Shown: positions 17,235 to 38,330 of the stretch, in pieces | Layout: every line of letters starts with the position of its first letter | Position numbering within the stretch: position 1 is the first letter of the stretch | Origin: Paenibacillus sp. | Lineage (GTDB): Bacteria; Bacteroidota; Bacteroidia; Bacteroidales; Muribaculaceae | DNA length: 42,559 nucleotides | Assembly: GCA_023663345.1 (NCBI GenBank) | Contig: JAMPHR010000004.1 | Coordinates: 257,070-299,628, forward strand | Direction: 5' to 3' | The notes under the pieces: generated by a model | What the model saw: only the letters and a program-made list of their open reading frames with translations | What the model was told of the DNA's origin: nothing | The model's database searches: none | Program-made: the position numbers and the translations under genes

Positions 17235-17287
17235 AAGTTGAAATTGGAGGTGGGTAAAAGTACTCTATGGGCGGTTGGTGAAAAAAT

Positions 17288-17333
17288 ATCCGGCTGGCGC
17301 ACGTCATCTATGGTGAGCGGTCGTCAGCCGGAT
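17288..17333 (-). terminator. Terminator after gadB
   Basis: ATCCGGCTG and CAGCCGGAT form a 9-bp stem, extended inward by CG/CG. On the minus strand it is followed by ATTTTTTC. It lies between gadB and glsA, so gadB likely makes a monocistronic message plus readthrough into glsA-gadC. Confidence 0.7.
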
Positions 17334-17405
17334 CTATATCAGTAGTAGGATCAAAAGGGTGGAAGGACGGTCGTTGTATCGTTACAGCCGTCGTGCCCTA
17401 TATGA

Positions 17406-22236: not shown

Positions 22237-23541
22237 TCAATTGTGTATGCGTCTCATGCCGTAGAACACTATGACCACGAAGCATATGAGCGGGAGTATG
22301 AACGAGAGGTTCACGGCGGGGAAACCTGCTATGGTTCCGCAGTCGATGATGCGGGCCTGGATGGGGGGAAGCACCGATCCGCCGAGGATGGCCATGATGA
22401 GGCCGGCGGCTCCGAATTTGGCATCGTCACCGAGGCCTTCGAGTGCTATACCGTAGATGGTGGGGAACATGATGGACATGCAAGCCGATACACCCACGAG
22501 GCAATACAGACCCATGCGTCCGTCCATGAAGATCACTCCGGCGGTTAGGGCTACACCACATGTGGCCAGAATGGCAAGCAGGCGTCCCGCATTGATATAG
22601 CGTAAAAGATAAGTGAAGATGAAACGGTTGCAGCAGAATATGGCCATTGCTATGATGTTGTATTGCTGCGACAGCACTTCGGCGCTCTTTTCATCCATGC
22701 CTTCGTTCATGAACACGCGTGTGCCATACTGGATGATGAATGTCCAGCACATGATCTGGGCACCCACATAGAAGAACTGGGCAATGACTCCCTCACGGTA
22801 ACGGCTCAGCGAGAATATGCGCTTGAGGCTCTTGAAGAAATGCACGTCGTGAGAGTCGTCGCCATTGGCTGGCATCCTCATGAACTTGATGACAAGGAAC
22901 ATAATCAGGACTACAAGTCCTATGAACAGATAGGGGGTGATGAGTACCATGAGGTCGGCATCGCGCACAGCCTCAAATTCGGCATCGCTCAACGTGGCGC
23001 GGGCCTCGGTCTCAAGCGGATTGAGCTTGGCCTGGATGAATTTCATTGCCACCCACATGCCGGTGAGCGAGCCTATGGGGTTGAACGCCTGGGCAAGATT
23101 AAGTCGGCGCACCGAGGTGCTTTCCGATCCCATCGCAAGGATGTAGGGGTTACAGCTTGTCTCAAGGAATGAGAGTCCGCACGTGAGGATGAAGTAGGCG
23201 ATTAGAAACGGATAATAACTGCCTGTGAGCATGGCCGGATAGAACAGGAATGCTCCAATGGCGTAAAGGCCGAGACCGGTGAGCACACCGGCTTTGTAGG
23301 AGTACCGGCGGATGAATATTGCGGCAGGGAAAGCCATGGCGAAGTATCCGCCGTAGAAAGCTACCTGGATGAGCGTGCCGTCGGTGACGCTCATACGGAA
23401 TATTTTGGAGAAAGCCTTCACCATGGGGTTGGTGATGTCATTGGCAAATCCCCATAGGGCAAAGCAACTGGTGATGAGGATAAACGGTATCAGATAATTG
23501 ACACCGTTGTATCGAAGGAGCGATTGATTCTCTTTCATCAT
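22237..23541 (-). CDS. fucP: L-fucose:H+ symporter, MFS
   Basis: A 434-residue major facilitator transporter of the FucP family that brings L-fucose across the inner membrane. Twelve hydrophobic segments are apparent. Family-specific stretches include FILITSCFALWGFANDITNP near the N-terminus with the conserved Asp, GYFAMAFPAAIF, FILTCGLSFLETSCNPYI, NLAQAFNPIG, and in the C-half FMDGRMGLYCLVGVSACMS and FPTIYGIALEGLG. It is last of the minus-strand run after the mutarotase gene (90-base gap) and convergent with the sugar-oxidation operon. A related 6-deoxy sugar or an O-methylated fucose are possible alternative substrates. Confidence 0.9.
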   Translation of the reverse strand: MMKENQSLLRYNGVNYLIPFILITSCFALWGFANDITNPMVKAFSKIFRMSVTDGTLIQVAFYGGYFAMAFPAAIFIRRYSYKAGVLTGLGLYAIGAFLFYPAMLTGSYYPFLIAYFILTCGLSFLETSCNPYILAMGSESTSVRRLNLAQAFNPIGSLTGMWVAMKFIQAKLNPLETEARATLSDAEFEAVRDADLMVLITPYLFIGLVVLIMFLVIKFMRMPANGDDSHDVHFFKSLKRIFSLSRYREGVIAQFFYVGAQIMCWTFIIQYGTRVFMNEGMDEKSAEVLSQQYNIIAMAIFCCNRFIFTYLLRYINAGRLLAILATCGVALTAGVIFMDGRMGLYCLVGVSACMSIMFPTIYGIALEGLGDDAKFGAAGLIMAILGGSVLPPIQARIIDCGTIAGFPAVNLSFILPLICFVVIVFYGMRRIHN

Positions 23542-23631
23542 TAATGATTCATGATTAGATTTCTGGATTCGTATTGACTGAGGCGAGATAGTCGGATAGT
23601 CGGTAGTGAGGAAGTGTCCTGTGTGGTGGTG

Positions 23632-24021
23632 TCAGTCATAGAGGTGGAACACACGTTCCATCGGTTGCCATTTTTCGGCTGACGATGCTCCGGGGGCAGC
23701 TTGCTGGAATATGGACATGAAATCCTCCCATTCCTGCTGTCGGGGCAGTGTGGCAAGACGTGTCATGGCCTCGTCAAGATCGAGGTCGGCCGGAACTTCA
23801 AGTATCATCATCAGGCGTGTCCCACGTATATATATGTCCATCTCGAGAATACCCACCTCCTTGATACCTGCAAGTATCTCGGGCCAGAAGTTCTCCTCGG
23901 CATGTCGGCGACGGTATTCGGCTATGAGTTCGGGATCATCCTTAAGATCGAGTGTACGGCAAAATCGTTTTACCGGCACGCTATATGGTCTCATTGGATA
24001 GCCGGTCTCTTTGTTTTCCAT
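23632..24021 (-). CDS. RhaM-type sugar mutarotase
   Basis: A 129-residue protein of the L-rhamnose mutarotase (RhaM/DUF718) family, which interconverts alpha and beta anomers of deoxy sugars. Signature pieces: FCRTLDLKDDPELIAEYRRR, HAEENFWPEILAGIKEVGI with the conserved His, DIYIRGTRLMMILEV, and the closing W-PMERVFHLYD. Placed between fucI and fucP it probably acts on L-fucose, supplying the right anomer to the isomerase or dehydrogenase; true FucU mutarotases belong to another family. It follows the fucI terminator, so it may be transcribed by readthrough or its own weak promoter. Confidence 0.88.
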   Translation of the reverse strand: MENKETGYPMRPYSVPVKRFCRTLDLKDDPELIAEYRRRHAEENFWPEILAGIKEVGILEMDIYIRGTRLMMILEVPADLDLDEAMTRLATLPRQQEWEDFMSIFQQAAPGASSAEKWQPMERVFHLYD

Positions 24022-24036
24022 CGTAATAGGTATAAT

Positions 24037-24074
24037 TAAAAGTGGTAAGGACGCTTGCGGGAAGCGTCCTTACC
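24037..24074 (-). terminator. Rho-independent terminator after fucI
   Basis: GGTAAGGACGCTT (24044-24056) pairs with AAGCGTCCTTACC (24062-24074) over a 5-base loop. On the minus strand it is followed by an AC dinucleotide and then TTTTAATTA. Strong intrinsic terminator between fucI and the mutarotase gene. Confidence 0.85.
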
Positions 24075-24101
24075 CATTGGTTTATCGTTCAGAGATGGAT
24101 A

Positions 24102-25880
24102 TTACTTGTAGATGGGACCGTAGGTCGAGCAAGCGCGGTAGTCGGCACCTTCCTTGTCCATGCCGAAAGCATTCCATGCGGCGGGACGGAATATCTTTTC
24201 GTTCTCGACGTTGTGCATACATACGGGGATGCGCAGGATAGAAGCGAGAGTGATAAGGTCCTGTCCGATGTGGCCGTAGGTGATAGCGCCGTGGTTGGCA
24301 CCCCAGTTGTTCATCACCGAGTACACGTCCTTGAACGCTTCGCGGTCGGGGCACAGACGGGGTACGAACCATGTGGTGGGCCAGGTGGGATCGGTGCGCA
24401 TGTCGAGCACCTTCATGATCTCGGGATCAACATCGGCAGTCCATCCTTCGGCGATCTGGAGCACGGGGCCAAGGCCTTTGACAAGGTTAAGGCGCATCAT
24501 GGTCACAGGCATACCGCCACGTGTGAGGAAGTTGGACGAGAAGCCTCCACCACGGAAGTAGTCGCGGTCGGCAGGATACCATGTGGTGGCTGCCAGGCAA
24601 GCCTCGGCATCGGCGGGTGTCATTTCCCAATGGGGTTTCATTACGGGATTGCCCTCGGCATCCGATACTTGTCCGGTGCCGTCGAGAGTAGTAGCACCCG
24701 AGTTGATGAGGTGGATCATACCACCGGCGGCACGTCCGGTGAGTTCCTTGCCGGTGACACGTTTCACAGCCTCGGGGCTCCAGTAGGTGCGCACGTCGCT
24801 GAAGAACTGGGCACGGTTGGTGAGAAGGTGGCCGAAGAGCATTGCTATGCCATTGCAAGCGTCATTCTCGGTAGCGAATACGAATGCCTCACGTATGCCG
24901 TTCCAGTCAAACGATGTGTTGAGCAGGGCCTCGGAGAAGTCGCCGTTGGGGTAGAAGTCGGTCCACTGGCGCTGACCCTGGAATCCTCCGGCGATGGCGT
25001 TGTGTCCGAGTGCCTCCTCTTTGTAACCCATCTCTTTGAGTTTGGGATTGCCTTGCATGAGATCGCGGATAATGAGAGTCATCTTCACCACGAATTCCCA
25101 GTCGGCATCTTTCTCCTCGCGGGTCTTTTTCTTTTCGGGACGGTTCTTGAAGTCCTCGCCTTCGCGGGGCTTGCAGTATTTCTCGGTCCATGCCATAGCC
25201 TTGGCATATTCCTCGTGGTCGTATATGCCGAGAGTGATGCGGCGGGCAACTTCGGTCATATCGACTGATTCGGCACGCATACCCAGATATTCCTGGATGA
25301 AATTGGGGTCAACGATTGATCCGGCGATACCCATGCATACCGATCCGATCGACAGATAGGACTTTCCGCGCATGAGAGCCACGGCGAGGGCGGCACGTGA
25401 AAAGCGGAGGAGCTTCTCGGCTACATCCTCGGGGATAGTGTTGTCAGCGAGATCCTGTACATTGTGACCATAGATGCCGAATGCGGGAAGGCCCTTCTGG
25501 GCATGAGCGGCGAGAACGGCGGCGAGATACACAGCGCCGGGACGCTCGGTGCCGTTGAATCCCCACACGGCTTTCGGCCAATGGGGATTCATGTCCATTG
25601 TCTCGGATCCGTAGCACCAGCATGAGGTGACTGATATGGTGGCGCCTACACCCTCGCGCTCAAATTTCTCGGCACAAGCGGCTGCTTCGGGCACACGGCC
25701 TATGGTGCTGTCGGCGATGACACATTCTACGGGAGATCCGTCGGGGTAACGGAGATTGGTCGATATGAGGTCGGCCACTGCTTTGGCCAGATTCATTGTC
25801 TTGTCCTCAAGACTCTCGCGGATGCCGCCTTGGCGGGCATCGATGATAGGGCGAATGCCAATTTTAGGATATTTGCTCAT
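24102..25880 (-). CDS. fucI: L-fucose isomerase
   Basis: A 592-residue Mn-dependent isomerase interconverting L-fucose and L-fuculose (also D-arabinose/D-ribulose). The length matches the family. [20 protein letters not shown] opens the protein as in known FucI; the metal-binding Glu is at about residue 338 in [10 protein letters not shown], followed by [20 protein letters not shown] with the metal Asp; [13 protein letters not shown] and a late His complete the site. It is first in the minus-strand run, with TACATTTG as -7 box. No fuculokinase or fuculose-phosphate aldolase gene occurs in the window, unlike the usual Bacteroides fucose locus. Confidence 0.96.
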
Positions 25881-26015: not shown

Positions 26016-26723
26016 CTATTTCCTTATTTCTTCACGCCGAGGAGGCTGCTTGCGTTTGTAACATTGCTTGAAGTCGCACAATCCGCACGAATATTCGAGT
26101 TTTCTCACTTTGTCCCCAAGCCCGAGCACACCGCTGACTGATTTTATCGGCAACATGAGGCTCGATAGGGTAAGTGTGACACCACATGGCTTACCGGTGG
26201 GAAATAGCGAGAACAATGTCTGCTGACCCGAGACATGCCATCCGCAGTAGCCGGGGCTGAAACGGTTGGTGTGATGCCATCCGGTCGTTGATAGGAGATT
26301 TTCGAGGGATAGCTCCATCATATCAGCGGTCTTTTCGGCGATAACACTGCCTATTGCATCGGCTATGAATGTCTTGACCATGTCTCCTCCTGAAGACACC
26401 GCCTCCAGATATTCTCCGAATTCCTTTCCGGCAGTGGCCACGAAAAATGCGTAGCGCTGAGAGCCACGCAGTTGGCGTGCGATGATCTTACCGATCGAAA
26501 AGTCATATCCCATAGCCGAAAGCGTGTCGGTGGCGGTATCGAGCGATCCGTCGGTGATGAAGAAGCAGTATCGTGCCTTGACAATACCGCTTATTTCCGA
26601 GAGCATGGCAAGGGTCTCTTCGGCAGTGGCCTCGTCGGGAGTCGCATTGCCATATCCCATCTGCTCATATATGTCGGCGGGCGATATGCCAAGGTCATTG
26701 TAGGATAGAGTGTTCTCGATCAT
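26016..26723 (-). CDS. MetH activation-domain-like protein (corrinoid reactivase candidate)
   Basis: A 235-residue soluble protein resembling the stand-alone relatives of the C-terminal activation domain of B12-dependent methionine synthase. That domain binds S-adenosylmethionine and remethylates cobalamin that has become inactive Co(II). The diagnostic segment is RFSPGYCGW at 154-162 (compare the RxxPGYP-type AdoMet loop of MetH), followed by LFSLFPTG and a helical tail. The C-terminus carries a cysteine motif CGLCDFKQC at 213-221, which could bind a metal or an Fe-S cluster. Its start overlaps the stop of the upstream UroD-family methyltransferase as ATGA, so the two are translationally coupled. 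Reactivation of the fusion protein at 32015 is inferred. Confidence 0.8.
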   Translation of the reverse strand: MIENTLSYNDLGISPADIYEQMGYGNATPDEATAEETLAMLSEISGIVKARYCFFITDGSLDTATDTLSAMGYDFSIGKIIARQLRGSQRYAFFVATAGKEFGEYLEAVSSGGDMVKTFIADAIGSVIAEKTADMMELSLENLLSTTGWHHTNRFSPGYCGWHVSGQQTLFSLFPTGKPCGVTLTLSSLMLPIKSVSGVLGLGDKVRKLEYSCGLCDFKQCYKRKQPPRREEIRK

Positions 26724-27724
26724 GAGTTGTAGTCATGCAGGGCCTCGAAGAACGAGTCGATATTCTCCATAGGAGTGTGAGGCGGGGTGTCGCATCCGCT
26801 CGACAGTACGAAATTGGGGTAAGCGCTCATTTTCTTGAGCAGTTTAGTGGTTGCCTCGCGCATCTGGGTTGGGGTGCAGTCCTTGAATACCGATACCGGA
26901 TCAAGATTGCCCATGGCAAGGGCTGTGGGCGGGACATCGCGAATCACTTGTTCCATATCACACTTGTTTCCGAAATGGTATGCCGCGGCTCCGGTTGCCA
27001 CCATGGCTTCGGTACAGTGACCGGTGTTGCCACAGTTGTGGAGGAGCACAGCGAAATTATCATCCTGCACGCGGTCCACGATTCGTTTCACATAATCGGA
27101 TGAGAAGCGTCGGCAATCATCGTTGGACATCAGTCCGGCAGCCGGTTCGGCCATCATCACGCCATTCACGCCCGCCTCTTTCTGTGCGAGGCAGTAGCGC
27201 AGGATGAATTCGGTACATTTCTCAAGCAGGGCGTGTGCCGCCTGGGGATCCTGATATATGAGCACCATGATTTCCGACATGTCATACAGGCGTCCCGCCA
27301 ATGAAAACGGTCCGATACATCCACCTATCACCGGGCGGTCGGTGATGGCCCTTGCGGCGAGAAGATTGGCCTTTATGTATTCCGGTACACGTCCTGCCTT
27401 CAGCGACGGGACTTTGAGATTATATATGTCGTCGGCTGAATTAAGCATGTGGCCTATTACAGCCGGTACTTCATTTTCAGTAAAGGAAATCTCAGCCCCG
27501 AATGCCTCAGCCTCGACCGTGAGGTCCATTATCACAGTCGCGGCCGCTGTGGGATATTTATTAGCCAAGGCAACGATGGCATTGCAATGGGCAACTCCGT
27601 CCGAGACTGCTTTCAATACAGTGTCGCCGGTTATTTCAATTCCGGGATGCGTCATTACGGGAATTGCCACAACGTCCTTGCGGTCAATTATTTCCTGCAT
27701 CCATCGGGTCATATCTATCTTCAT
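26720..27724 (-). CDS. UroD-family cobamide methyltransferase (MtaA/CmuA-like) with zinc site
   Basis: A 334-residue TIM-barrel protein of the uroporphyrinogen-decarboxylase-like family in its methyltransferase branch. The arginine-rich N-terminal motif of true UroD (RQAGRY type) is absent. The zinc ligands of MtaA/MtbA/CmuA enzymes are present: His229-x-Cys231 in LLHNCGN and Cys311 in LSSGCDTPP. In that branch zinc activates a thiol acceptor that takes methyl from methyl-cobamide. Gut Bacteroidota are not known to make coenzyme M, so the acceptor may be homocysteine or another thiol, or THF. The ATG at 27724 (MKIDMTRWMQ) is chosen; the upstream extension of 19 residues overlaps the -7 box. 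It is coupled to the activase gene. Confidence 0.85.
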   Translation of the reverse strand: MKIDMTRWMQEIIDRKDVVAIPVMTHPGIEITGDTVLKAVSDGVAHCNAIVALANKYPTAAATVIMDLTVEAEAFGAEISFTENEVPAVIGHMLNSADDIYNLKVPSLKAGRVPEYIKANLLAARAITDRPVIGGCIGPFSLAGRLYDMSEIMVLIYQDPQAAHALLEKCTEFILRYCLAQKEAGVNGVMMAEPAAGLMSNDDCRRFSSDYVKRIVDRVQDDNFAVLLHNCGNTGHCTEAMVATGAAAYHFGNKCDMEQVIRDVPPTALAMGNLDPVSVFKDCTPTQMREATTKLLKKMSAYPNFVLSSGCDTPPHTPMENIDSFFEALHDYNS

Positions 27725-27754
27725 GGTAAAACAGGTGTTTAGGAAATTTGACCG

Positions 27755-27762
27755 CAAATATA
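27755..27762 (-). promoter_or_regulatory. -7 box for the methyltransferase-activase operon
   Basis: CAAATATA on the plus strand reads TATATTTG on the minus strand, 31-38 bases upstream of the start at 27724. This box and the plus-strand promoter at 27817-27847 lie back to back within 145 bases, so one regulator could control both operons. No cobalamin riboswitch core was recognised here. Confidence 0.55.
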
Positions 27763-27816
27763 CGCAAATTTGCTCTAACATATTGCTTATATTTTACACT
27801 TATTGTAAGAATAATT

Positions 27817-27847
27817 TTGAAGAATTACACAAATATCCCTAATTTTG
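27817..27847 (+). promoter_or_regulatory. Promoter of the GH141-like/GH31/methyltransferase operon
   Basis: TTG at 27817-27819, a 20-base spacer and TAATTTTG at 27840-27847, 23 bases before the ATG at 27870. Confidence 0.7.
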
Positions 27848-27869
27848 CATAAAGTTAACCAGTGATACC

Positions 27870-29699
27870 ATGAAACCGATCTTTTCAATAATCGGATTGT
27901 TGTTTGCCACGGCTTTTAATATGCAAGCCGGCGACATATATGTGTCGACATGCGGAAATGATTCATTATCAGGGCGTGCCGATGCCCCGTTGCGTACCGT
28001 AGCCGAGGCGATGAAGCGTGCCCGCGAGTGGCGTAGACTTAATGCGCCTGAGGCTGATGGAGATATACGCATAATATTATCCGATGGTGTCTACCGGCAA
28101 ACAGAGCCACTTTTCGTGCGTCCCGAGGACAGCGGAAAGCCTGGCTCGGCCACTATAATCTGCTCGCCGGAAGGTGAGCAGGCTGTGATAAGTGGCGGTG
28201 TGGAGGTGACCGGCTGGAGGCAAGGTTGCGATGACAAGCGCATCTCGCCATCGTTAAGAGACAGGATATGGGTTGCCGATGCTCCTATGAATGGAAATAG
28301 AATGGTGGAGACCCGCCAGCTGTATGTCAACGGACGCAAGGCCGTGAGGGCATCCCAGTTTGAGCCGGGCAAGATGGAGCGGATGGTTGATTTCAATCCG
28401 TCGGAACTCACCATCACTGTGCCGGCACCTTCCATTGACCTGTCATCGGCCTCGCAGCTCGAGATGTATGTTCACCAGCGTTGGGCAATCGCAATACTTA
28501 GAGTGAAAAGCATCACCCCCGATGGCAATGGCAACGTGGTGGTGAGATTCCATGACCCTGAAAGCAGGTTGGAGTTTGCACATCCGTGGCCTCAGCCGGT
28601 GATAGGCGGAGAGAAGGGAAATTCATCCTATTATTTTGCCAATGCGCTTGAATTGCTTGACACACCCGGAGAATGGTATCAGGATTATCCCTCAGGACGC
28701 ATATATTATTATCCGCGCGAGGGGGAGGAGATGAACCGCAGTAATGTGGTGATTCCGGTGCTTGAGACCATACTCGCAATTGACGGTACGCGTGAACGCA
28801 CGGTGAGTGACGTGAGATTTGAGAATGTGGCGTTCGAGTATGCCGCATGGACCAGGCCCTCTCGCGAGGGACATGTCACGCTTCAGGGCGGATTCCGTCT
28901 CCTTGATGCCTACAAGTTAAAGGTACCCGGCCTGCCTGAGAAAGCGGAGCTCGAGAATCAGGCATGGATCGCCCGACCTGAGGCGGCTGTGACCGTAAGC
29001 CATGCTTCCGGAATAGATTTTGACCGCTGTCGTTTCAGCCATCTCGGCGCAACTGGCCTTGATTTTATCACAGCTGTCAAGAATTCGGAGGTTACGGCAT
29101 GTACCTTTGAGGACATAGGCGGTACGGCATTGCAGATGGGAACATTCCCCGACGGAGGATTCGAGACCCATGTACCATATATTCCCGCTGTTGACAGCGA
29201 TATATGCTCGGATATCACAGTGAGCGGTAATCTCATCACCGATGTCACCAATGAGGACTGGGGATGTGTGGGTATAGGAGCCGGTTACGTGCGCGATGTC
29301 ACGATCAGTGACAATGAGTTGTCCCTCCTCAACTATTCCGGTATATGCGTTGGGTGGGGATGGACTTCACTTGAAAGCGGTATGCGCAACAACCGCATCA
29401 CTGATAATTACGTGCATCATTTCGCTTCACAGTTATATGATGCCGGTGGCATATACACGTTGTCCAATCAACCCGGATCGGTAATATCTGGCAACAGAAT
29501 CGAGAATCTTGTCAAGGCTCCTTATGCCACAAATGACCGCGGATTCTATATCTATTTCGATGAGGCTACCGATGGCTTCACTGTGGAAGGGAACCTGTGC
29601 CCCGATCCTGAGTTCGGATACAACCGGCCCGGTCCGGCGATGAAAATAAGAAACAATGGTCCTGATGTGAAACTGAACAACCGTTTCGCAGATAAATAA
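27870..29699 (+). CDS. Exported right-handed beta-helix protein, GH141-like
   Basis: A 609-residue exported protein with a signal peptide (MKPIFSIIGLLFATAFNMQA). The N-terminal block (PLRTVAEAMKRARE, IILSDGVYRQTEPLFVRPED, EQAVISGGVEVTGW) and the following parallel beta-helix repeats (VTVSHASGIDFDRCRFSHLG, VTACTFEDIGGTALQMG, VTISDNELSLLNYSGICVG) resemble family GH141. Characterised GH141 members include an alpha-L-fucosidase acting on rhamnogalacturonan II and a xylanase. It opens the operon that continues with a GH31 alpha-xylosidase, so it probably removes a fucose- or xylose-containing unit in the periplasm. The GH141 call is pattern recognition; a related lyase or epimerase-like beta-helix is possible. 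Confidence 0.72.
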   Translation: MKPIFSIIGLLFATAFNMQAGDIYVSTCGNDSLSGRADAPLRTVAEAMKRAREWRRLNAPEADGDIRIILSDGVYRQTEPLFVRPEDSGKPGSATIICSPEGEQAVISGGVEVTGWRQGCDDKRISPSLRDRIWVADAPMNGNRMVETRQLYVNGRKAVRASQFEPGKMERMVDFNPSELTITVPAPSIDLSSASQLEMYVHQRWAIAILRVKSITPDGNGNVVVRFHDPESRLEFAHPWPQPVIGGEKGNSSYYFANALELLDTPGEWYQDYPSGRIYYYPREGEEMNRSNVVIPVLETILAIDGTRERTVSDVRFENVAFEYAAWTRPSREGHVTLQGGFRLLDAYKLKVPGLPEKAELENQAWIARPEAAVTVSHASGIDFDRCRFSHLGATGLDFITAVKNSEVTACTFEDIGGTALQMGTFPDGGFETHVPYIPAVDSDICSDITVSGNLITDVTNEDWGCVGIGAGYVRDVTISDNELSLLNYSGICVGWGWTSLESGMRNNRITDNYVHHFASQLYDAGGIYTLSNQPGSVISGNRIENLVKAPYATNDRGFYIYFDEATDGFTVEGNLCPDPEFGYNRPGPAMKIRNNGPDVKLNNRFADK

Positions 29700-29725
29700 G
29701 AAAGATAAAAAGAAGATTATAGAGA

Positions 29726-32002
29726 ATGAAACCTACGAACTATCATTTATTTGATTTTCTCGACTTTGATATTGAGCTGAGCAAGCCCGAGTCTCTGTGG
29801 AAAGCGTGCAAGCCTACAGCAGTGGAGGAGCATGACGGTGATATACATGTCACAGTGCCTTTCCAGAAGCAGATTTTAGCAAATGACATGGCTCCTGACA
29901 CTGAAGTCCCGCGGGAGTCGCACACCATGATCATGCGCCAGTACGGTCCCAAGATACTGAGAGTATTCATGGGATTCGGCGACGTGGAGATGTCGGACAG
30001 TTCAGAGATGCTTATGCTCAATGAGCGTGTGGACAAACTGCCGCTCTCTGTGCGCTTCGAGGATGGCCAGTGGATAATATCCACCGAGCGCGAAGGGGAG
30101 ATCCGTGCGGTAATCAATGTTCGCGAGCCTGAGTTGGATCGCTGGAGCGAGTTGCTTCCCGATCCGCAGGAGACTCTCGACCTGCGTCTGTACCCGGACG
30201 GAGAGCATGAAGTGCGCCTCGCTGCCTACGACCATTTCTCGCCCCCACGTTACGATGCCCTGCCCATAGCTTATTGCAAGCTCAACGGTGAGCGTGAACG
30301 TGCCACACTGTCGTTTGAATGCAAGCATGACGAGTGTTTTGGCGGTACAGGCGAGCGCTTTGCCAAGATGGACCTGAGCGGACAGACATTCTTCCTGAAG
30401 AATCAGGACGGACAGGGTGTAAACAACCGCCGCACTTATAAGAATATACCGTTCTACGTATCGAGCCGTATGTACGGAACATTCTATCATACCACTTCCC
30501 ATAGCAAACTTTCGCTGGCCGGTCATTCTACCCGCTCGGTACAGTTTATGAGCGACCAGGCACTGGTGGATGCCTTTGTTATTGGAGGAGAAACTGTCGA
30601 GGAGATCATACGCGGATACCGTGACCTTACCGGCTATCCCACGATGCCTCCGCTGTGGAGCTTCGGTGTGTGGATGAGCCGTATGACATATTTCAGCGCC
30701 GAGGAGGTCAGCGGTATTTGCGATCGTCTGCGCGAGGAGCACTATCCCTGTGATGTGATCCATCTCGATACCGGTTGGTTCAAGACCGACTGGCTGTGTG
30801 AATGGAAATTCAACGAGGAGCGCTTCCCCGATCCCGAGGGATTCATACGCGGACTCAAAGATCAGGGATTCCGTGTGTCGCTGTGGCAGTTGCCCTACGT
30901 GGCACGTGATGCCGAACAGATTGACGAGGCTAGGGCCAATGACTATATAGCGCCTCTTACCAAGGAGCAGGCCTCGGAGGGATCCAATTTCTCGGCGCTT
31001 GATTATGCCGGAACAATCGACTTCACCTATCCTGCCGCCACCGAGTGGTACAAGAGTCTGTTAAAGAGGCTTCTCGATATGGGTGTGGTGTGCATAAAGA
31101 CCGACTTTGGCGAGAATATCCACATGGATGCCGTATACAAGGGGATGAAACCCGAATTGCTCAACAATCTCTATGCCCTGTTGTATCAGAAAGCCGCCTA
31201 CGAGATCACCAAGGATGTAACCGGCGACGGTATCGTGTGGGCTCGTGCTGCCTGGGCTGGATGTCAGCGTTACCCATTGCATTGGGGCGGTGACTCGTGC
31301 AGTTCATGGGACGGTCTGGCCGGATCGCTCAAGGGTGGATTGCATTTCGGCCTGTCGGGCTTCGCATTCTGGAGCCACGATGTGCCCGGATTCCATTCAT
31401 TGCCCAATTTCATGAATTCGCCTGTCGAGGATGATGTGTACATGCGCTGGACCCAATTTGGCGTATTCTCATCCCATATCCGCTATCACGGTACCAGCAA
31501 GCGCGAGCCTTGGTTCTATCCGGCAATCGCCCCGCTGGTGAAGCGTTGGTGGAGACTCCGCTACTCGCTGATCCCCTATATACTGAAGGAGAGTGAGAAG
31601 TCGACCGTGAGCGGTTCGACGCTTGTCCAGGCCATGATATTCCACAATGCCGATGACCGCACCTGTCTCCACATCGACGATCAGTATTATTTCGGCGACA
31701 GCTTCCTGGTGGCTCCCGTGATGAACTCCGAAAATGTCAGGGACATATATCTGCCCGAAGGTCGTTGGGTGAACTTCTTTACCGGTGAGGTACTCGAAGG
31801 TGGCCGTTGGCTCAAGGATGTGTATGTGCCGATGGAGGACATGCCGGTCTACGTGAAACATGGAGCGGTTATACCGTTCTATCCCGAGGTTGTGGATTGC
31901 ACCGATCAGATGGATCTCGACAAGACCGTGATGCTGACTGTAGGTGACGGATTTCGTGGCGTGTGGAATGAGTTTAAGGAACTGTTTTCCGATGCAGAAT
32001 AA
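29726..32002 (+). CDS. GH31 alpha-xylosidase (YicI-like)
   Basis: A 758-residue family GH31 enzyme that releases alpha-linked xylose or related units from oligosaccharides. It has no signal peptide, so it acts in the cytoplasm. After an N-terminal beta-sandwich, the catalytic barrel shows LWSFGVWMSRMTYFS, the nucleophile Asp460 in CIKTDFGENI (the KTDFGE form of YicI-type alpha-xylosidases) and the acid/base Asp523 in HWGGDSCSSW, followed by GLSGFAFWSHDVPGF. It starts 27 bases after the beta-helix gene and ends 12 bases before the corrinoid methyltransferase fusion. Its aglycone and any tolerance of O-methyl-xylose cannot be read from sequence. Confidence 0.93.
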   Translation: MKPTNYHLFDFLDFDIELSKPESLWKACKPTAVEEHDGDIHVTVPFQKQILANDMAPDTEVPRESHTMIMRQYGPKILRVFMGFGDVEMSDSSEMLMLNERVDKLPLSVRFEDGQWIISTEREGEIRAVINVREPELDRWSELLPDPQETLDLRLYPDGEHEVRLAAYDHFSPPRYDALPIAYCKLNGERERATLSFECKHDECFGGTGERFAKMDLSGQTFFLKNQDGQGVNNRRTYKNIPFYVSSRMYGTFYHTTSHSKLSLAGHSTRSVQFMSDQALVDAFVIGGETVEEIIRGYRDLTGYPTMPPLWSFGVWMSRMTYFSAEEVSGICDRLREEHYPCDVIHLDTGWFKTDWLCEWKFNEERFPDPEGFIRGLKDQGFRVSLWQLPYVARDAEQIDEARANDYIAPLTKEQASEGSNFSALDYAGTIDFTYPAATEWYKSLLKRLLDMGVVCIKTDFGENIHMDAVYKGMKPELLNNLYALLYQKAAYEITKDVTGDGIVWARAAWAGCQRYPLHWGGDSCSSWDGLAGSLKGGLHFGLSGFAFWSHDVPGFHSLPNFMNSPVEDDVYMRWTQFGVFSSHIRYHGTSKREPWFYPAIAPLVKRWWRLRYSLIPYILKESEKSTVSGSTLVQAMIFHNADDRTCLHIDDQYYFGDSFLVAPVMNSENVRDIYLPEGRWVNFFTGEVLEGGRWLKDVYVPMEDMPVYVKHGAVIPFYPEVVDCTDQMDLDKTVMLTVGDGFRGVWNEFKELFSDAE

Positions 32003-32014
32003 TTAGGAGGAGCA

Positions 32015-34162
32015 ATGATGAATACATGGAAAAAGAATCTTGAAGAGACCAAGAAACGCTATATAGACTGGTGGAACCATAAGGGTATCGTGCTCAACAT
32101 GTGGGAGCATTTCCAGAATGGAGTGACTCCACATGCCGATGTGCCGGCTCCTGTTGCGCCTGTGGATCTTAACCAGAAATGGTTTGATCCGAAATGGCGT
32201 GCCGATTATCTCGACTGGTATGTGGCACACAGTTCGCTTAAGGCCGATATACTCCCTGTGGCCAATACCCATCTCGGCCCCGGCTCACTTGCCGCCATAC
32301 TCGGCGGTGTCTTTGAGGGTGGCGAGGATACTATATGGATCCACCCCGACCCGAAGTACACGGATGATATAAAGTTTGATGAGAATCATCCCAACTGGCT
32401 TTTGCATAAGGAGCTTCTGAAAGCCTGCAAGCGCAAGGCCGACGGGCATTACTACGTGGGTATGCCCGACCTCATGGAGGGACTCGATGTGCTTGCCGCC
32501 ATGAAGGGTACTGACAAGGTGCTTCTTGATACCGTGATGCAGCCCGATGTGCTCGAACGGCAGATGCGCCAGATCAATGAGATCTATTTCAAGGTGTTCG
32601 ATGAGCTGTACGATATAATCCGCGAGGGTGATGAGATGGCGTTCTGCTATTTCTCCTCATGGGCTCCCGGCAAGATGGCCAAGATCCAGAGCGATATATC
32701 CACCATGATCAGCGTGGAGGATTACCGCCGGTTTGTACAGCCGTTCATCCGCGAGCAGTGCCAGCGTATCGATTATACCCTCTATCATCTCGACGGTGTG
32801 GGTGCCTTGCATCATCTCCCCGCACTCCTCGAGGTTGAGGAGCTGAACGCCGTGCAGTGGACTCCCGGTGTGGGCGAGCCTCAGGGCGGATCTCCGAAAT
32901 GGTATGACCTGTACCGCCGTATTCTCGGAGCCGGCAAGAGCATCATGGCTTGCTGGGTGACTCTTGATGAGCTACGTCCATTGCTCGACAATATCGGTGG
33001 TGACGGCGTGCATCTCGAAATGGATTTCCATAACGAGGATGAAGTCGAGCAGGCCATGAAGATCGTAGAGGAATATCGTGGACGTCCGGCTATAAAAAGA
33101 GAGGAGACCGAAGCTATAAAGATTGACTCCCCGGCATTTGATGCTGATGCCGAAGTAGCGCGTATAATTGAAAAGGTCGAGAATGAAACTGTGGCCGAGC
33201 CCGAGGCTGTCACGGAAGCTGAACCCGCAACAGCAGGGGCTGTTCCGACCGCAGATCACTCGGTAGAGGTGTCATCTTCAGTTCCAGAGATCAAGGTCTC
33301 AGTTCCCGACAGTGTGAAGGAATTACATATTCATGTGCATATCCATGTCGATGGGAATGATGGAGCATCATCGTATGTACCTAAGATCAATATCACCAAT
33401 TCCACATCAGCACCCAAGGAAGCTGTGGCTCCGAAAGGGGCGATGCGTCCCGTGAAGTTGACCTCGGCGTCTGAGCCGTGCCCGTGTTGCGAGCCTGAAT
33501 CCAAGGTGGCCAAGGTGGATGCCGAGATGGCAGGTAAAGATGTGTTTGATGCGATAGTTGCAGGAAAGTCCGATGATGCGGCCAATGCTACCCGCCGGGC
33601 TATAGATGCCGGAGTCGCTCCGCAGGATATTATAAACAACCGCATGATCAGCGCCATGAGTGAAGTGGGGCAGAGGTTCCAGGATGGAAAGGCTTTCGTG
33701 CCCCAGCTCCTGATGGCCGGACGCGCCATGAAGTCGGCGCTCGAACTGCTCAAACCCATGATGGCTGGATCGGCCTCGACCACTATCGGCAAGGTTGTTA
33801 TCGGTACAGTGAAGGGGGACCTTCATGACATAGGCAAGAATCTTGTAGCCTCGATGCTGGAGGGTTGCGGATTTGAGGTGATAAATATCGGTATAGATGT
33901 TCCGTCCGAGACATTTGTCGAGGAGGTGAGGAAATCACAGGCCGATATCCTGTGCATGAGTGCCCTGCTCACCACTACCATGACCTACATGAAGGAAGTG
34001 ATAAAAGCTCTGGAAGATGCCGGTCTGCGAGACAAGGTAAAAGTCATGGTAGGTGGTGCCCCCGTCACACAGAATTTTGCTGACGAGATCGGTGCCGACG
34101 GCTATAGCGATAATGCCAACACTGCTGTGGCCCTGGCTCGTCGCCTCGTGGGAAAACAGTAA
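32015..34162 (+). CDS. UroD-like methyltransferase fused to a B12-binding corrinoid protein
   Basis: A 715-residue cytosolic fusion. Residues 1-360 are a UroD-like TIM barrel. It lacks the HxC zinc pair of its paralogue; the equivalent region reads YHLDG at 257-261, followed by LNAVQWTPGVGEPQ, suggesting a zinc-free methyltransferase for a non-thiol substrate. Residues 361-498 are a low-complexity Ala/Glu/Val/Pro linker containing HIHVHIHV (438-445) and CPCC (489-492). Residues 500-585 form the helical cap of corrinoid proteins (FQDGKAFVPQLLMAGRAM), and 590-715 the B12-binding Rossmann fold with Asp602-x-His604-x-x-Gly607 in GDLHDIGKN, then SALLTTT and VGGAPVT. So substrate methyltransferase and methyl carrier are joined in one chain. 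A strong AGGAGG site precedes ATG 32015; ATG 32018 is also possible. It sits 12 bases after the alpha-xylosidase. An O-methyl-sugar substrate is inferred. Confidence 0.87.
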   Translation: MMNTWKKNLEETKKRYIDWWNHKGIVLNMWEHFQNGVTPHADVPAPVAPVDLNQKWFDPKWRADYLDWYVAHSSLKADILPVANTHLGPGSLAAILGGVFEGGEDTIWIHPDPKYTDDIKFDENHPNWLLHKELLKACKRKADGHYYVGMPDLMEGLDVLAAMKGTDKVLLDTVMQPDVLERQMRQINEIYFKVFDELYDIIREGDEMAFCYFSSWAPGKMAKIQSDISTMISVEDYRRFVQPFIREQCQRIDYTLYHLDGVGALHHLPALLEVEELNAVQWTPGVGEPQGGSPKWYDLYRRILGAGKSIMACWVTLDELRPLLDNIGGDGVHLEMDFHNEDEVEQAMKIVEEYRGRPAIKREETEAIKIDSPAFDADAEVARIIEKVENETVAEPEAVTEAEPATAGAVPTADHSVEVSSSVPEIKVSVPDSVKELHIHVHIHVDGNDGASSYVPKINITNSTSAPKEAVAPKGAMRPVKLTSASEPCPCCEPESKVAKVDAEMAGKDVFDAIVAGKSDDAANATRRAIDAGVAPQDIINNRMISAMSEVGQRFQDGKAFVPQLLMAGRAMKSALELLKPMMAGSASTTIGKVVIGTVKGDLHDIGKNLVASMLEGCGFEVINIGIDVPSETFVEEVRKSQADILCMSALLTTTMTYMKEVIKALEDAGLRDKVKVMVGGAPVTQNFADEIGADGYSDNANTAVALARRLVGKQ

Positions 34163-34196
34163 AATAGGAAACACTTAAATCTACATATCATACCCT

Positions 34197-35801
34197 ATGA
34201 ATGACTTATCATTGCGACCGATGGACTGGGCAGTCCTCATCGCATATTTTGTAATCCTTCTCGCAGTTGGCCTATGGGCCAGCTCGAGAAGCAAGAAGGG
34301 GGAGCATAAGTTCCTTGCCGGAAATTCCCTCAGGTGGCACCATATAGGTTTCTCCATGTGGGGAACCAATGTGGGCCCCTCCATGCTCATTGCCTCGGCC
34401 AGTGCCGGATTCACAGCCGGTATCGTGTCGGGCAATTATGCGTGGTATGCTTTCGTGTTCATCGCTTTGCTCGCTTTTGTGTTTGCTCCGCGCTATCTTG
34501 GTGAGAAGATCACCACGTTGCCTGAATTTATGGGTAAGCGCTTTGGCGAGTCGACCCGAAACATGCTTGCTTGGTACACCATTGTGACGGTGCTTATCTC
34601 ATGGCTCGCGCTCACGTTGTTTGCCGGCGGTATCATCATCCGTCAGGTGTTCGGTATCCCCATGTGGTTATCGGCCTTTATACTGCTTGGTATCTCGGCG
34701 TTTTTCACCATACTTGGCGGACTCAAGGCCATCGCTTATACAAATGTATATCAGATGGTGTTGCTGATACTCGTGTCGGCCACGCTCACTATAGTGGGTA
34801 TATGGCATCTCGGCGGAGAGTCGGTGGTGGGTGGAGTAAGCACCCTTGCCGATCCCGATGTTGTGCCCTCGCACTACTGGAATCTGTTCCAGCCCAATTC
34901 CCATAAGGAGTTCCCCTGGCTTCCGATTCTGCTCGGCTATCCCATTTCGGGACTGTGGTTCTGGTGTACCGACCAGTCGATGGTTCAGCCTGTACTCGCC
35001 GCCCGTGATATCAACGAGGGTCAGAAGGGCGCCAATTTCACAGGTTGGCTCAAGATTCTTGATGTGGCTATCTATATAATCCCCGGAGTGGTGTGTTTCG
35101 CATTGTGGCAGAAAGGTTTCTTTGGCAGTGCCACCATCGAACCTGACAATGCCTACATGACACTTGTGACTCATCTGTTCCCGGTAGGTATGGTAGGACT
35201 TGTGATCGCCGTGCTCACAGCCGCGCTCATCAGTACCATCGGATCGGCCCTCAATGCACTCAGCACAGTGTTCACGATGGATATTTATCTCAAGAATATC
35301 AACACCGGAGCCACGTCGAAAGAGATTGTCCGCACAGGTCATATCGTCACTATCGTAGGTGCCCTTGTATCGGTGGTTATCACTGTGGCGGTCGACAATA
35401 TCAAGGGGATGGACCTTTTCAATGTGTTCCAGTCGGTACTGAGCTTCATCGCTCCCCCTATGGCAGCCGTGTTTGTGATGGGTGTGTTCTGGAAGCGGTG
35501 TACAACCCTTGCCGCCAATGTGGTGCTTACGTTCGGTACTATATTCAGTATCGGATGCGGAGTGCTCTACCTGTGGGTGATACCTCATGCTACCGAGCAG
35601 GTCCATTTCATGATGCTTTCATTCCTGATATTTGTGGTTCTTATCCTCAGTATGGTCGCTATCAGTTTTGCCGATAAGGCAGTTGCGGAGCGTGCTCCCA
35701 TGGCTGTGGTCAAGACCAAGATGTCGGCAAGCGTGAGAATCGCTTGGATCGCCCTCGCATTGGTAATGATATCACTATACATATTCTTCAACGGAAACTA
35801 A
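34197..35801 (+). CDS. Sodium:solute symporter (SSS family)
   Basis: A 534-residue inner-membrane symporter of the SSS/SGLT family with about fourteen hydrophobic segments. Typical stretches are MDWAVLIAYFVILLAVGLWA at the N-terminus, LAGNSLRWHHIGFSMWGTNVGPSMLIASASAGF, TTLPEFMGKRFG, YPISGLWFWCTDQSMVQPVLAARD and LISTIGSALNALSTVFTMDI, close to sodium/glucose-type members. It follows the methyltransferase fusion by 34 bases and precedes the aldolase by 20, so it probably imports the sugar or oligosaccharide this operon uses, such as a xylose- or fucose-containing unit for the cytoplasmic alpha-xylosidase. Exact substrate unknown. Confidence 0.9.
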   Translation: MNDLSLRPMDWAVLIAYFVILLAVGLWASSRSKKGEHKFLAGNSLRWHHIGFSMWGTNVGPSMLIASASAGFTAGIVSGNYAWYAFVFIALLAFVFAPRYLGEKITTLPEFMGKRFGESTRNMLAWYTIVTVLISWLALTLFAGGIIIRQVFGIPMWLSAFILLGISAFFTILGGLKAIAYTNVYQMVLLILVSATLTIVGIWHLGGESVVGGVSTLADPDVVPSHYWNLFQPNSHKEFPWLPILLGYPISGLWFWCTDQSMVQPVLAARDINEGQKGANFTGWLKILDVAIYIIPGVVCFALWQKGFFGSATIEPDNAYMTLVTHLFPVGMVGLVIAVLTAALISTIGSALNALSTVFTMDIYLKNINTGATSKEIVRTGHIVTIVGALVSVVITVAVDNIKGMDLFNVFQSVLSFIAPPMAAVFVMGVFWKRCTTLAANVVLTFGTIFSIGCGVLYLWVIPHATEQVHFMMLSFLIFVVLILSMVAISFADKAVAERAPMAVVKTKMSASVRIAWIALALVMISLYIFFNGN

Positions 35802-35821
35802 TCATATAACAATATAAGATT

Positions 35822-36760
35822 ATGACAGCTAATTTCAAATCTCCGCTCAGCGGAATCATCCCTCCCCTCGTCACACCTCTCCTCGGCAATGATCAGCTCG
35901 ATGTTGCCAGCCTTGAGAACCTCATAGAACACCTTATCGCCGGTGGCGTGCATGGACTTTTCATCCTCGGTACCACCGGTGAGGAGCAGAGCCTGAGTTA
36001 TCGTCTGCGCAAGGAGATGATACATGAGACCTGCCGCATCAATGCCGGACGTCTGCCGGTGCTTGTATGTATTACCGATACATCGATTGTGGAGAGTGCC
36101 AATCTTGCCAAGGTTGCCGCCGATTGCGGAGCCTCAGCCGTGGTGAGCGCAGCTCCTTATTATTTCGCAACCGGCCAGCCTGAGCTCGCCGAGTTCTACG
36201 AGGATCTTCTGCCCCTGCTTCCCTTGCCTCTGTTCCTCTACAATATGCCCAGCCATGTGAAAGTGAACTTCTCGCCGGCTACCATACATCGTATTGCCGA
36301 GAATGAGAAGGTGGTGGGATTCAAGGACAGTTCGGCCAACCTTCCTTATTTCCAGTCGGTGATGTACACCATGAAGGACCGTCCCGATTTCGCTATGCTG
36401 ATGGGTCCCGAGGAGGTGACAGCCGAGTGTGTGATGCTTGGTGCCCATGGCGGTATTAATGGCGGCGCCAACATGTTCCCCGAGCTGTACGTGGCTATCT
36501 ATAATGCCGCCAAGGCCGGAAATCTCCAGGAGGTGTGGCGCCTGCAACAGTACATCATGCAGATCAGTACTTCGATCTACAGTGTCGGCAAGCATGGCTC
36601 AAGCTATCTCAAGGGTCTCAAGTGTGCATGTTCGCTGCTTGGCGTGATCAAGGATGACTTTGTGGCCGCTCCGTTCCATAAGTTCAACGAGCCTGAGCGT
36701 CGCAAGATCCAGGAGGCTCTCGACCGTCTGCCCATACGTGACGGAAAGCTCATTTTCTAA
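35822..36760 (+). CDS. DapA-family aldolase (2-keto-3-deoxy-aldonate type)
   Basis: A 312-residue class I aldolase of the dihydrodipicolinate synthase/N-acetylneuraminate lyase family. The Schiff-base Lys168 is in VVGFKDSS, the catalytic Tyr140 in FLYNMPSH, and the pyruvate-binding loop is LGTTGEEQSL. In a sugar operon without lysine-biosynthesis genes, a role splitting a 2-keto-3-deoxy sugar acid into pyruvate and an aldehyde is more likely than lysine synthesis. It could finish the oxidation route begun at 19177 (2-keto-3-deoxy-fuconate to pyruvate plus lactaldehyde) or act on 2-keto-3-deoxy-xylonate. No aldonate dehydratase is present in the window. It is last in the operon and is followed by a strong terminator. 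Confidence 0.88.
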   Translation: MTANFKSPLSGIIPPLVTPLLGNDQLDVASLENLIEHLIAGGVHGLFILGTTGEEQSLSYRLRKEMIHETCRINAGRLPVLVCITDTSIVESANLAKVAADCGASAVVSAAPYYFATGQPELAEFYEDLLPLLPLPLFLYNMPSHVKVNFSPATIHRIAENEKVVGFKDSSANLPYFQSVMYTMKDRPDFAMLMGPEEVTAECVMLGAHGGINGGANMFPELYVAIYNAAKAGNLQEVWRLQQYIMQISTSIYSVGKHGSSYLKGLKCACSLLGVIKDDFVAAPFHKFNEPERRKIQEALDRLPIRDGKLIF

Positions 36761-36776
36761 AAACACCATAAACCGG

Positions 36777-36820
36777 ACTCAAGTTGGGATTCCCATTGAA
36801 TCCCAACTCGAGTTTCTTTA
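36777..36820 (+). terminator. Rho-independent terminator after the DapA-family gene
   Basis: ACTCAAGTTGGGATT (36777-36791) pairs with AATCCCAACTCGAGT (36799-36813), one mismatch, 7-base loop, followed by TTCTTTAAT. It closes the operon that begins at 27870. Confidence 0.85.
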
Positions 36821-36875
36821 ATCTAACCTTATAATTTCCGATGCGAGAGTAGATGTCTCGATTGGATTCCATGCC

Positions 36876-38330
36876 ATGAATTTTATTGATATTATAGTAT
36901 TTCTAATATTTACTGTCGGAACTATCCTGTTTGGCTACATGTTTGGCCGTAAGAAACAGAGCAGTGACGAATTTACCAGGGGCGGAGGCAAAGTCCCCGG
37001 ATGGATAGTAGGTCTTTCCATTTTTGCATCATTCTGCAGTTCGATTTCATTTTTAGGATATTGCTCATCGGCGTTCATGGGCAACTGGAATGCGTTTGTG
37101 TTCACTATCTCCATATTGCCGGCAGGATTGCTGGCGATGTATTATTTCGTGCCGTTCTACAGATCGCTGGGCAGCATCAGTGCCTACAGCTATTTTGAGA
37201 AGCGTTTTGGCCGCTGGGCCCGTTTGTATGCGTCGGTTTTCTATCTCTTTACCCAGGTGTGCCGTTCGGGAGCCATTCTGTTTCTCCTTGCGGTGCCTAT
37301 GAATGTGCTTATGGGGTGGAGTATTCCTCTTGTCGTCACCGTCACAGGTCTCGGCATCATCCTGTACAGTCAGAAAGGCGGATTGAAGTCGGTGATATGG
37401 ACCGAGGCTCTCCAGGGAGCAATTCTTGTGGTGGGAGCTGTGATATGCCTGATCACCCTATATTGGGGTATGCCCGAGGGTCCTATGCAGGCTATAAATA
37501 TATGTATGGAGCATAACAAGTTCTCACTCGGAAGTTTTGAGGGTGGTATCGTGGAAAGCACATTCTGGGTATGCCTCATATATGGAATGTTCACCAATCT
37601 CAATAACTTCGCCATTGATCAGAGCTATACCCAGCGCTATTGCGCGGCTCCGTCGTTGAGCGAGGCCCGTAAGAGTGCATTCTGGGGTTCGCTGCTCACG
37701 TTGCCTGTCAATCTCATACTTTTCCTCATCGGATCAGGTCTTTTTGCATTCTATTATATCAATTCAGGATCGCTTCCCGAGGGGATCAAGAGTGATTATG
37801 TGTTCCCCTATTTCATTATCAATGAAATGCCTGTGGGCCTTGTGGGTCTGCTCATCGCCTCGATATTCTGTGCCGGTATGAGCACGGTGGCCACAAGTGT
37901 GACATCCTCGGGTACTATTGTACTTACCGATTTTTATTCCCACATGTTCCCAAATTCCAGCGATGCCCGCAAGGTCATAGTGTTGCGTGTCGCTTCGGTT
38001 GCAGTGGGTATTCTTGGCATTGGTGTTGCACTGTGTTTCCTCTTGGTGGATAATGCACTTGATGCCTGGTGGGCATTGAGCAGTGTATGCTCGGGCGGTG
38101 TGCTCGGCATGTTCCTGTTGGCGTTCCTCTGTCCTAAGGCTAAGAAATGGCATGTGGTGCCCGGAGTGGTCGTAGGTGTGGCTTCGCTTGTGCTTATCGC
38201 GCTTCAGACCAAGCTCACCGACTGGTGGGGAATACCTCAGTTTGTACATATCAATCTGAGTATCGTGATCAGTACTCTTCTTATATTTATGATAGGATTT
38301 ATACTTGCACGGTTCTTTAGCAAGAAATAA
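36876..38330 (+). CDS. Sodium:solute symporter (SSS family), second copy
   Basis: A 484-residue inner-membrane symporter, about thirteen hydrophobic segments, of a different SSS sub-group from the one at 34197. Visible family pieces: VFLIFTVGTILFGYMFGRKK, FTRGGGKVPGWIVGLSIFAS, SYFEKRFGRWARLYASVFYL, NFAIDQSYTQRYCAAPSLSEA and SIFCAGMSTVATSVTSSGTI. The sub-group includes transporters for sialic acid, sugar acids and other small organic acids. It lies beyond the terminator of the previous operon; a small CGAGA/TCTCG repeat at 36844-36860 sits in its leader. Whether it belongs with the methyl-sugar genes is uncertain. Confidence 0.87.
   Translation: MNFIDIIVFLIFTVGTILFGYMFGRKKQSSDEFTRGGGKVPGWIVGLSIFASFCSSISFLGYCSSAFMGNWNAFVFTISILPAGLLAMYYFVPFYRSLGSISAYSYFEKRFGRWARLYASVFYLFTQVCRSGAILFLLAVPMNVLMGWSIPLVVTVTGLGIILYSQKGGLKSVIWTEALQGAILVVGAVICLITLYWGMPEGPMQAINICMEHNKFSLGSFEGGIVESTFWVCLIYGMFTNLNNFAIDQSYTQRYCAAPSLSEARKSAFWGSLLTLPVNLILFLIGSGLFAFYYINSGSLPEGIKSDYVFPYFIINEMPVGLVGLLIASIFCAGMSTVATSVTSSGTIVLTDFYSHMFPNSSDARKVIVLRVASVAVGILGIGVALCFLLVDNALDAWWALSSVCSGGVLGMFLLAFLCPKAKKWHVVPGVVVGVASLVLIALQTKLTDWWGIPQFVHINLSIVISTLLIFMIGFILARFFSKK

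Follow-up and report, generated by a model that had tools for sequence, protein, structure and literature searches.

The gene cluster described here lies in a 42,559-nucleotide stretch of contig JAMPHR010000004.1 (positions 257,070 to 299,628; this whole stretch is hereafter called the window) from the Muribaculaceae genome GCA_023663345.1, which has a size of 2.64 Mb and is 86.6% complete. Judged from its sequence, the cluster probably encodes an anaerobic, corrinoid-dependent system for O-demethylation of the methyl sugars of rhamnogalacturonan II (RG-II), 2-O-methyl-xylose and/or 2-O-methyl-fucose, that passes the methyl group to a thiol, probably homocysteine. We infer the reactions, the sugar, the acceptor used in the window and the transport step from the domain make-up of the proteins, the modelled fold of the UroD1 domain, the conserved candidate metal-site residues and the association of the genes with RG-II enzymes.

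Central to the cluster is a fusion protein encoded on the plus strand, which consists of the UroD1 domain (residues 1-360; 32015..33094), a linker (33095..33538) and corrinoid-binding domains (33539..34150). A preliminary description of the window had assigned domains to the genes of this locus, and profile searches against Pfam and NCBIfam bore these assignments out, with a reservation on the first half of the fusion. While the B12-binding part was readily recovered (PF02607-PF02310, with the motif DxHxxG), the part described as UroD-like had neither a Pfam match nor a significant sequence match in the PDB. The only PDB entry found by a profile search with UroD1 was CdmB, at a non-significant E of 1.2, and a profile-profile comparison of UroD1 with the second UroD-family protein of the locus, UroD2, gave no match. 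The UroD assignment therefore rests on the fold: when modelled from a 58-row alignment, the UroD1 domain has a UroD fold. An AlphaFold2 single-sequence model of the whole fusion was discarded (pLDDT 41). The corrinoid domain scored 219.1 bits against pyl_corrinoid TIGR02370 (cut-off 215.3) and 199 bits against 1y80. DxHxxG was present in 82 of 85 homologous fusions, two of which (L012 and L031) belong to one genome; the other three (L023, L053 and L086) are cut off by the end of a contig ahead of this domain.

According to PMC10418091, UroD-family S-methyltransferases bind zinc by His-Cys-Cys, whereas in O-methyltransferases of the family one or both Cys are replaced by carboxylates or by residues that do not coordinate. 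UroD2 (26720..27781, minus strand; Pfam URO-D 2.2e-62) has the site residues H248, C250 and C330, and its motifs HNCGN and [ST]GCD were present in 49 of 49 homologues. Instead of His-Cys-Cys, UroD1 has D337 and, at the end of the corresponding strand, H258-L-D260, although D337 was placed as the third ligand by hand, in a by-eye alignment of proteins that are about 11% identical. D337 is invariant in the 58-row alignment (A3), and 12 of the 14 sequences in another alignment (A4) have D or H at this position. By the published metal-site rule, UroD1 thus looks like an ether-oxygen enzyme and UroD2 like a sulphur enzyme. UroD2 resembles MtaA and CmuA, but with 138.5 of the 600 bits set for MtbA and 104.1 of the 400 bits set for MtaA, it stays below the curated NCBIfam cut-offs for methylcobamide:CoM methyltransferases.

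The gene of UroD2 overlaps by 4 bases with that of a MetH-type activation protein of 235 aa (26016..26723, minus strand), which we propose to be the corrinoid reactivase. This protein matched Pfam Met_synt_B12 (1.4e-11) and the PDB entry 1j6r 'methionine synthase' (E 3.3e-5), which we take to be the activation domain. Its homologues contain RxxPGY in 49 of 49 cases and CxxCxxxxC, located near the C-terminus, in 48 of 49. The locus encodes a putative UroD-superfamily donor enzyme, a DxHxxG corrinoid protein and a candidate acceptor methyltransferase, with a predicted acceptor role. The reductive activase of Ram/RACE type that is usual, though not universal, in three-part corrinoid systems, and that is also found in the type 1 mlp cluster, is missing: the source genome, at its 86.6% completeness, gave no match to the RACo-type domain (PF14574), and has the MetH-type activation protein instead. 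This absence also bears on the idea that the corrinoid genes have their role in the metabolism of methylated sulphur or selenium compounds, as type 1 mlp clusters may do, and that the sugar genes are nearby by chance. UroD2 does resemble the methyl-thiol branch, and the type 1 mlp clusters of anaerobes likewise combine UroD-family proteins, including His-Cys-Cys enzymes, with a corrinoid protein; however, they hold several Mlps with Ram/RACE and were proposed to act on methyl-selenium or methyl-sulphur compounds (PMC10418091, available part). Given the O-type site of UroD1 as aligned, and an association with glycoside hydrolases (GH) that spans several families, we consider this idea most improbable.

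The association was examined in GTDB species genomes, at least 264 stretches of which encode a relative of UroD1. The best 80 were kept, and neighbours were counted by tblastn, 41 of the 80 loci having at least 7.9 kb on both sides (full-flank loci). The loci were found in Prevotella and relatives, Phocaeicola (P. vulgatus, P. sartorii and P. coprophilus), Bacteroides and Muribaculaceae. The most frequent partners of UroD1 in full-flank loci were GH31 and the sodium:solute symporter SSS1 (35/41 each), GH141 (33/41), and UroD2 and the activation protein (30/41 each). This is the opposite of what the preliminary description had said would speak against it, namely homologues occurring mostly away from glycosidase genes. 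GH139 (7/41), FucI (6/41) and the aldolase (4/41) were less frequent. Among all 80 loci, FucI was found in 6, and FucP, the aldolase and the second SSS transporter in 4 each. By this rarity, FucI/FucP and the aldolase were ruled out as defining partners. A phylum-wide draw of 395 genomes contained UroD1 only in the source genome, plus one weak partial match, and an order-wide draw was therefore used for the statistics given below.

Some loci place the unfused parts in a similar setting. In L019, from another family of the same order, GH31, UroD1, SSS1, a corrinoid protein, UroD2, the activation protein and GH141 stand in a row that adjoins a GH140 apiosidase and GH78/BNR genes, on a contig that also holds FucI, GH28, GH95, GH2, a GH139 domain and GH106. 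GH31, UroD1, SSS1, GH141 and the activation protein likewise lie amid similar pectin genes in L119 and L120. In these two loci, which belong to two families, a GFO/IDH/MocA oxidoreductase gene (L119:10530-11579 and L120:8210-9274; 78% identical to each other) is inserted between UroD1 and SSS1. A distant UroD1 homologue, 28% identical, adjoins GH31, a RhaT-family transporter and a GntR regulator in L124:72-6486 (genome G596), and no corrinoid match was found within that stretch.

Pectin carries methyl esters, and corrinoid systems for methanol are classical, so that the methyl source might be methanol from pectin esterases, or some other small methyl compound of pectin diets, with the GH genes as bystanders. 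The frequent partners, however, are the symporter and GH31/GH141, with GH139 in the genome, and no pectinesterase family was found among the scanned neighbour proteins, which are a selection and not an exhaustive search. We therefore regard methanol or a similar compound as a very unlikely substrate.

Several observations connect UroD1 with the methyl sugars of RG-II, a common component of the human diet (PMC12282258). BT1002 (GH141) releases 2-O-methyl-D-xylose-alpha-1,3-L-fucose from RG-II side chain A (PMC10154630), and GH139 releases 2-O-methyl-L-fucose, being described in 2025 as the sole family known to do so (PMC12282258; available parts in both cases). GH139 was traced here by the marker domain DUF5703_N, which may cover proteins besides GH139; one such protein (L037:5643-7800) scored 774 bits against 9hyq, one of the two entries of the GH139 paper (PMC12282258). 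In the order-wide draw of 295 evenly sampled genomes, UroD1 (E up to 1e-20) was found in 9, the GH139 domain in 20 and both in 8 (Fisher p 8e-10), which places the domain in 8 of 9 UroD1-positive genomes compared with 12 of the 286 others. The sole UroD1-positive genome without it is G596, the distant variant (5e-43). In a second set (loci L051-L100 of the 80), GH139 was present in 45 of 49 UroD1-positive genomes, a count that covers such genomes alone, without a UroD1-negative control from the same genera. In 8 of the 80 loci, the GH139-domain gene abuts the fusion gene, its end lying anywhere from 9 bases upstream of the fusion reading frame to 38 bases within it. The close GH31 type (E up to 1e-150) was found in 7 of 20 GH139-positive and 0 of 20 GH139-negative genomes, and six of these seven genomes have UroD1. 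The source genome itself has, on contig C11, an RG-II-type locus with GH139, GH140-, GH95- and GH106-like genes, several GH2-like and GH78-type genes and a BT1002-type GH141 that scored 1026 bits against 5mqp (BT_1002). Taken together, the GH31/GH141 loci, the GH139 counts and the abutting GH139 genes give good support to the proposal of the preliminary description that the methyl donor is an O-methylated sugar, at the level of an O-methyl-sugar demethylase linked to RG-II.

The window GH141 (27870..29699, plus strand; signal peptide by eye) matched GH141_M with 3.2e-62 and 209 bits (cut-off 27) and 5mqp with 528 bits. Both catalytic Asp residues are aligned, using residue numbers from the available part of PMC10154630 and an inferred offset of 5. 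It is 44% identical to the BT1002-type GH141 on C11. The GH31 enzyme (29726..32002, plus strand; without a signal peptide by eye and hence taken as cytoplasmic) is alpha-xylosidase-like, scoring 1451 bits against 5f7c and 361-365 bits against the YicI entries; its 481 bits lie below the PRK10658 cut-off of 606, and 5f7c, its nearest solved structure, is named an alpha-glucosidase.

In 74 of the 85 homologous fusions, BLAST revealed a homocysteine S-methyltransferase domain between UroD1 and B12 (29-38% identity, E 2e-23 or better), at the site of the window linker. The preliminary description had recognised the fusion correctly, but this domain, which the window protein does not have, had escaped its notice. 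Pfam confirmed the domain in L037 (PF02574, 1.7e-84), and its zinc Cys motifs GxNC and GGCCG are intact in 73 cases, the 74th being truncated by a contig end. A stand-alone PF02574 gene (1e-72) lies within the GH141-GH31-UroD1 row of L119. Fusions without the domain are those of the window, L018, L026, L027 and eight of Phocaeicola/Bacteroides, although one Bacteroides fusion, L094, contains it. On a quick 50-row tree, presence of the domain changes 6 times, at least 2 of these changes being forced by strong branches. A pterin-binding domain was not matched by Pfam in either the window or the L037 fusion. As read from their sequences, the fusions with the homocysteine domain are MetH-like: a UroD barrel stands in for the folate domain, and the activation domain has become a separate protein. 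In the source genome, an ordinary MetH is the only PF02574 match, and UroD2 should therefore be the acceptor enzyme in the window, with homocysteine as the likeliest thiol acceptor.

In the route that we propose, GH141 would act on side chain A of RG-II outside the cytoplasm and free a methylated product, which would be taken up by SSS1 (34197..35801, plus strand), the putative importer of a methylated di- or monosaccharide. The cytoplasmic GH31 would cleave this product into 2-O-methyl-xylose and fucose. UroD1 would then demethylate the sugar ether, loading the methyl group onto Co(I) in the corrinoid part of the fusion and leaving free xylose, and a zinc-thiolate transferase would demethylate the methyl-Co(III), this being UroD2 in the window and the in-fusion homocysteine S-methyltransferase domain in most relatives. 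Most likely, the methyl group would end in methionine. The MetH-type activation protein would restore oxidised cobalt with S-adenosylmethionine, and fucose would pass to the neighbouring FucI. A second likely substrate is 2-O-methyl-fucose, as released by GH139. Of the two sugars, 2-O-methyl-xylose is favoured by the position of GH31 beside UroD1, and 2-O-methyl-fucose by the GH139 genes that abut the fusion in some Prevotellaceae.

Apart from the limits noted above for D337, the DUF5703_N marker and the second genome set, several findings weigh against this route. GH31 and GH141 are both missing from 6 of the 41 full-flank loci (L052, L059, L064, L067, L096 and L100); FucI is present in three of these six, and L052 and L067 add the aldolase. 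In the order-wide draw, 12 GH139-positive genomes have no UroD1, genome G635 has the close GH31 without UroD1, and no GH31 of this type was found in G042 and G539, which both have UroD1. With 528 bits to 5mqp, compared with 1026 for the C11 gene, the window GH141 falls into a subgroup of its own rather than being the orthologue of BT1002, so that its product may differ. This last point would also suit the view that the substrate is another O-methyl sugar than those of RG-II, for example 4-O-methyl-glucuronic acid or one that occurs in microbial glycans. The class may indeed cover many different sugars, since the corrinoid/UroD2/activation module also occurs beside GH29 and GH38 with other UroD enzymes. 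UroD1 itself, however, is tied to GH139 and to RG-II-type loci with apiosidase, and we judge another sugar to be unlikely.

Further points against the route concern the acceptor. No homocysteine domain was found in the window fusion, either by inspection of the linker or by Pfam and NCBIfam searches, which leaves UroD2 to fill the acceptor step there. Yet 26 of the 35 full-flank loci with the homocysteine domain also have UroD2. As both coexist, they may not do the same job, and the view that UroD2 replaces the domain where it was lost was ruled out. Moreover, GH139, a corrinoid protein and UroD2 form a one-strand row in L136:15280-19534 (genome G493), apart from the UroD1 operon of that genome, an arrangement that is also compatible with UroD2 as another enzyme of the donor side. 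UroD2 might accordingly be a second donor-side enzyme, for 2-O-methyl-fucose, and the acceptor would then be the homocysteine domain or, in fusions that have lost it, MetH in trans; only one step of the proposed route would change. A match to UroD2 in 15 of 16 genomes checked (G042 has fragments only), with and without the homocysteine domain, would fit such a role, as would a fucokinase/pyrophosphorylase-type gene that adjoins UroD2 in L139. Nevertheless, the His-Cys-Cys site predicts a sulphur ligand, and in 4 of 10 further stretches UroD2 is paired with corrinoid and activation proteins beside different UroD enzymes, as expected of a shared acceptor. These two findings agree with the acceptor role given to UroD2 in the preliminary description, and we see the donor-side role as possible rather than likely.

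The ten further stretches came from the order-wide draw, in which 16 of 295 genomes contain UroD2 (E up to 1e-70); nine stretches represent the nine of these genomes that have no UroD1, and one represents G596. UroD2 with corrinoid and activation genes and other UroD enzymes was present in L154:5622-9015, L155:7977-15109 (two UroD-like genes), L158:1013-9854 (GH38 and an MFS transporter) and L161:7279-12714 (GH29), and these modules are probably further glycan demethylase types. UroD2 and a corrinoid gene lie behind a LacI regulator in L157 and L162, and UroD2 was without a corrinoid match within the stretch in L153, L156, L159 and L160. This recurrence suggests a shared carrier and acceptor set with exchangeable, sugar-specific donor enzymes. 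We lean, by a modest degree, towards a broader interpretation as well, in which the chain of UroD1, homocysteine transferase and B12 domains would be a MetH that carries a sugar O-demethylase where the folate domain used to be, and would thus make methionine with methyl groups from the ethers of plant sugars. It would belong to a larger group of glycan-linked corrinoid demethylases in Bacteroidales, whose members would combine a common UroD2/corrinoid/activation module with UroD donor enzymes of their own, next to GH29, GH38 and further genes. As a separate observation, the gene ahead of UroD2 encodes a serine hydroxymethyltransferase in two genomes of Phocaeicola (L141:3-1858 and L142:8518-10910), which may reflect a one-carbon link or chance.

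Compared with MetH, the system is alike in that most relatives have homocysteine and B12 domains in one chain, many with a MetH-type activation protein nearby; it differs in having a UroD domain for the folate domain and a separate activation gene, and the window protein is also without the homocysteine domain. The three-part corrinoid O-demethylases (MtvB, OdmB, VdmB and archaeal MtoB) and the chloromethane enzyme CdmB (PMC13222342, available part) share with it a UroD-superfamily donor, a corrinoid protein, a separate acceptor enzyme and an activation protein. These enzymes act on aryl ethers or chloromethane, and the bacterial ones pass the methyl group to tetrahydrofolate (PMC10418091, available part), whereas the window system has glycan loci, a predicted thiol-type acceptor and a MetH-type activator, and its UroD1 showed no significant sequence similarity in the searches made. 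In the MtgBCDE glycine betaine demethylase/split methionine synthase of marine bacteria, one corrinoid carrier likewise couples nutrient demethylation to methionine synthesis, but with a pfam06253-family donor enzyme and a quaternary amine as substrate (PMC12478193, available part). The P450 of marine Bacteroidota that demethylates 6-O-methyl-galactose also takes a methyl ether off a polysaccharide sugar, but does so oxidatively, with formaldehyde as product (PMC10033563, available part); such a monooxygenase route would be unsuited to strict anaerobes. Bacteroides thetaiotaomicron degrades RG-II with the same enzyme families (GH141 BT1002 and GH139 BT0984), freeing 2-O-methyl-xylose and 2-O-methyl-fucose, and a demethylation step is not among the parts described in the available portions of PMC10154630 and PMC12282258. 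No description of corrinoid-dependent sugar demethylation was recognised among the top full-text matches in open-licence literature, and within the literature so reached the enzymes that release the two methyl sugars of RG-II are described, but not the fate of these sugars. If correct, our reading would fill a gap in what is known of methyl-sugar use by anaerobic gut bacteria and connect vitamin B12 with both the use of pectin and the supply of methionine in the gut. It is directly testable, since some gut species with these genes can be cultured, for instance Phocaeicola vulgatus ATCC 8482, in which the fusion lies at about 3719948-3721750 of NC_009614.1.

The two gene rows of the locus diverge from 88 bases of intergenic DNA between UroD2 and GH141 (27782..27869). 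The rightward row runs from GH141 through GH31, the fusion and SSS1 to a DapA/KDG-aldolase-like gene (35822..36760) and a second SSS transporter (36876..38330), all on the plus strand, with gaps of 26, 12, 34, 20 and 115 bases. The last two genes are inconstant partners, although aldolase homologues also occur in two distant RG-II-type loci. Downstream of UroD2 and the activation protein, on the same minus strand, lie genes for FucI, a RhaM-like mutarotase and a FucP-like transporter, the latter named by eye (22237..25880). A riboswitch check of 18000-39500 with Rfam (matches up to E 0.1) was negative; the sole match, a sub-threshold miRNA family at 36762-36826 with 26 of 56 bits, is surely due to chance. 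UroD2 is the single URO-D Pfam match of the source genome, and no HemE was found at its 86.6% completeness, which suggests that the uroporphyrinogen decarboxylase step for haem is absent. Elsewhere in the window (14634-18845), genes for an amino acid permease, a glutaminase and a pyridoxal-dependent decarboxylase stand in a row that resembles a glutamate-based acid-resistance set.

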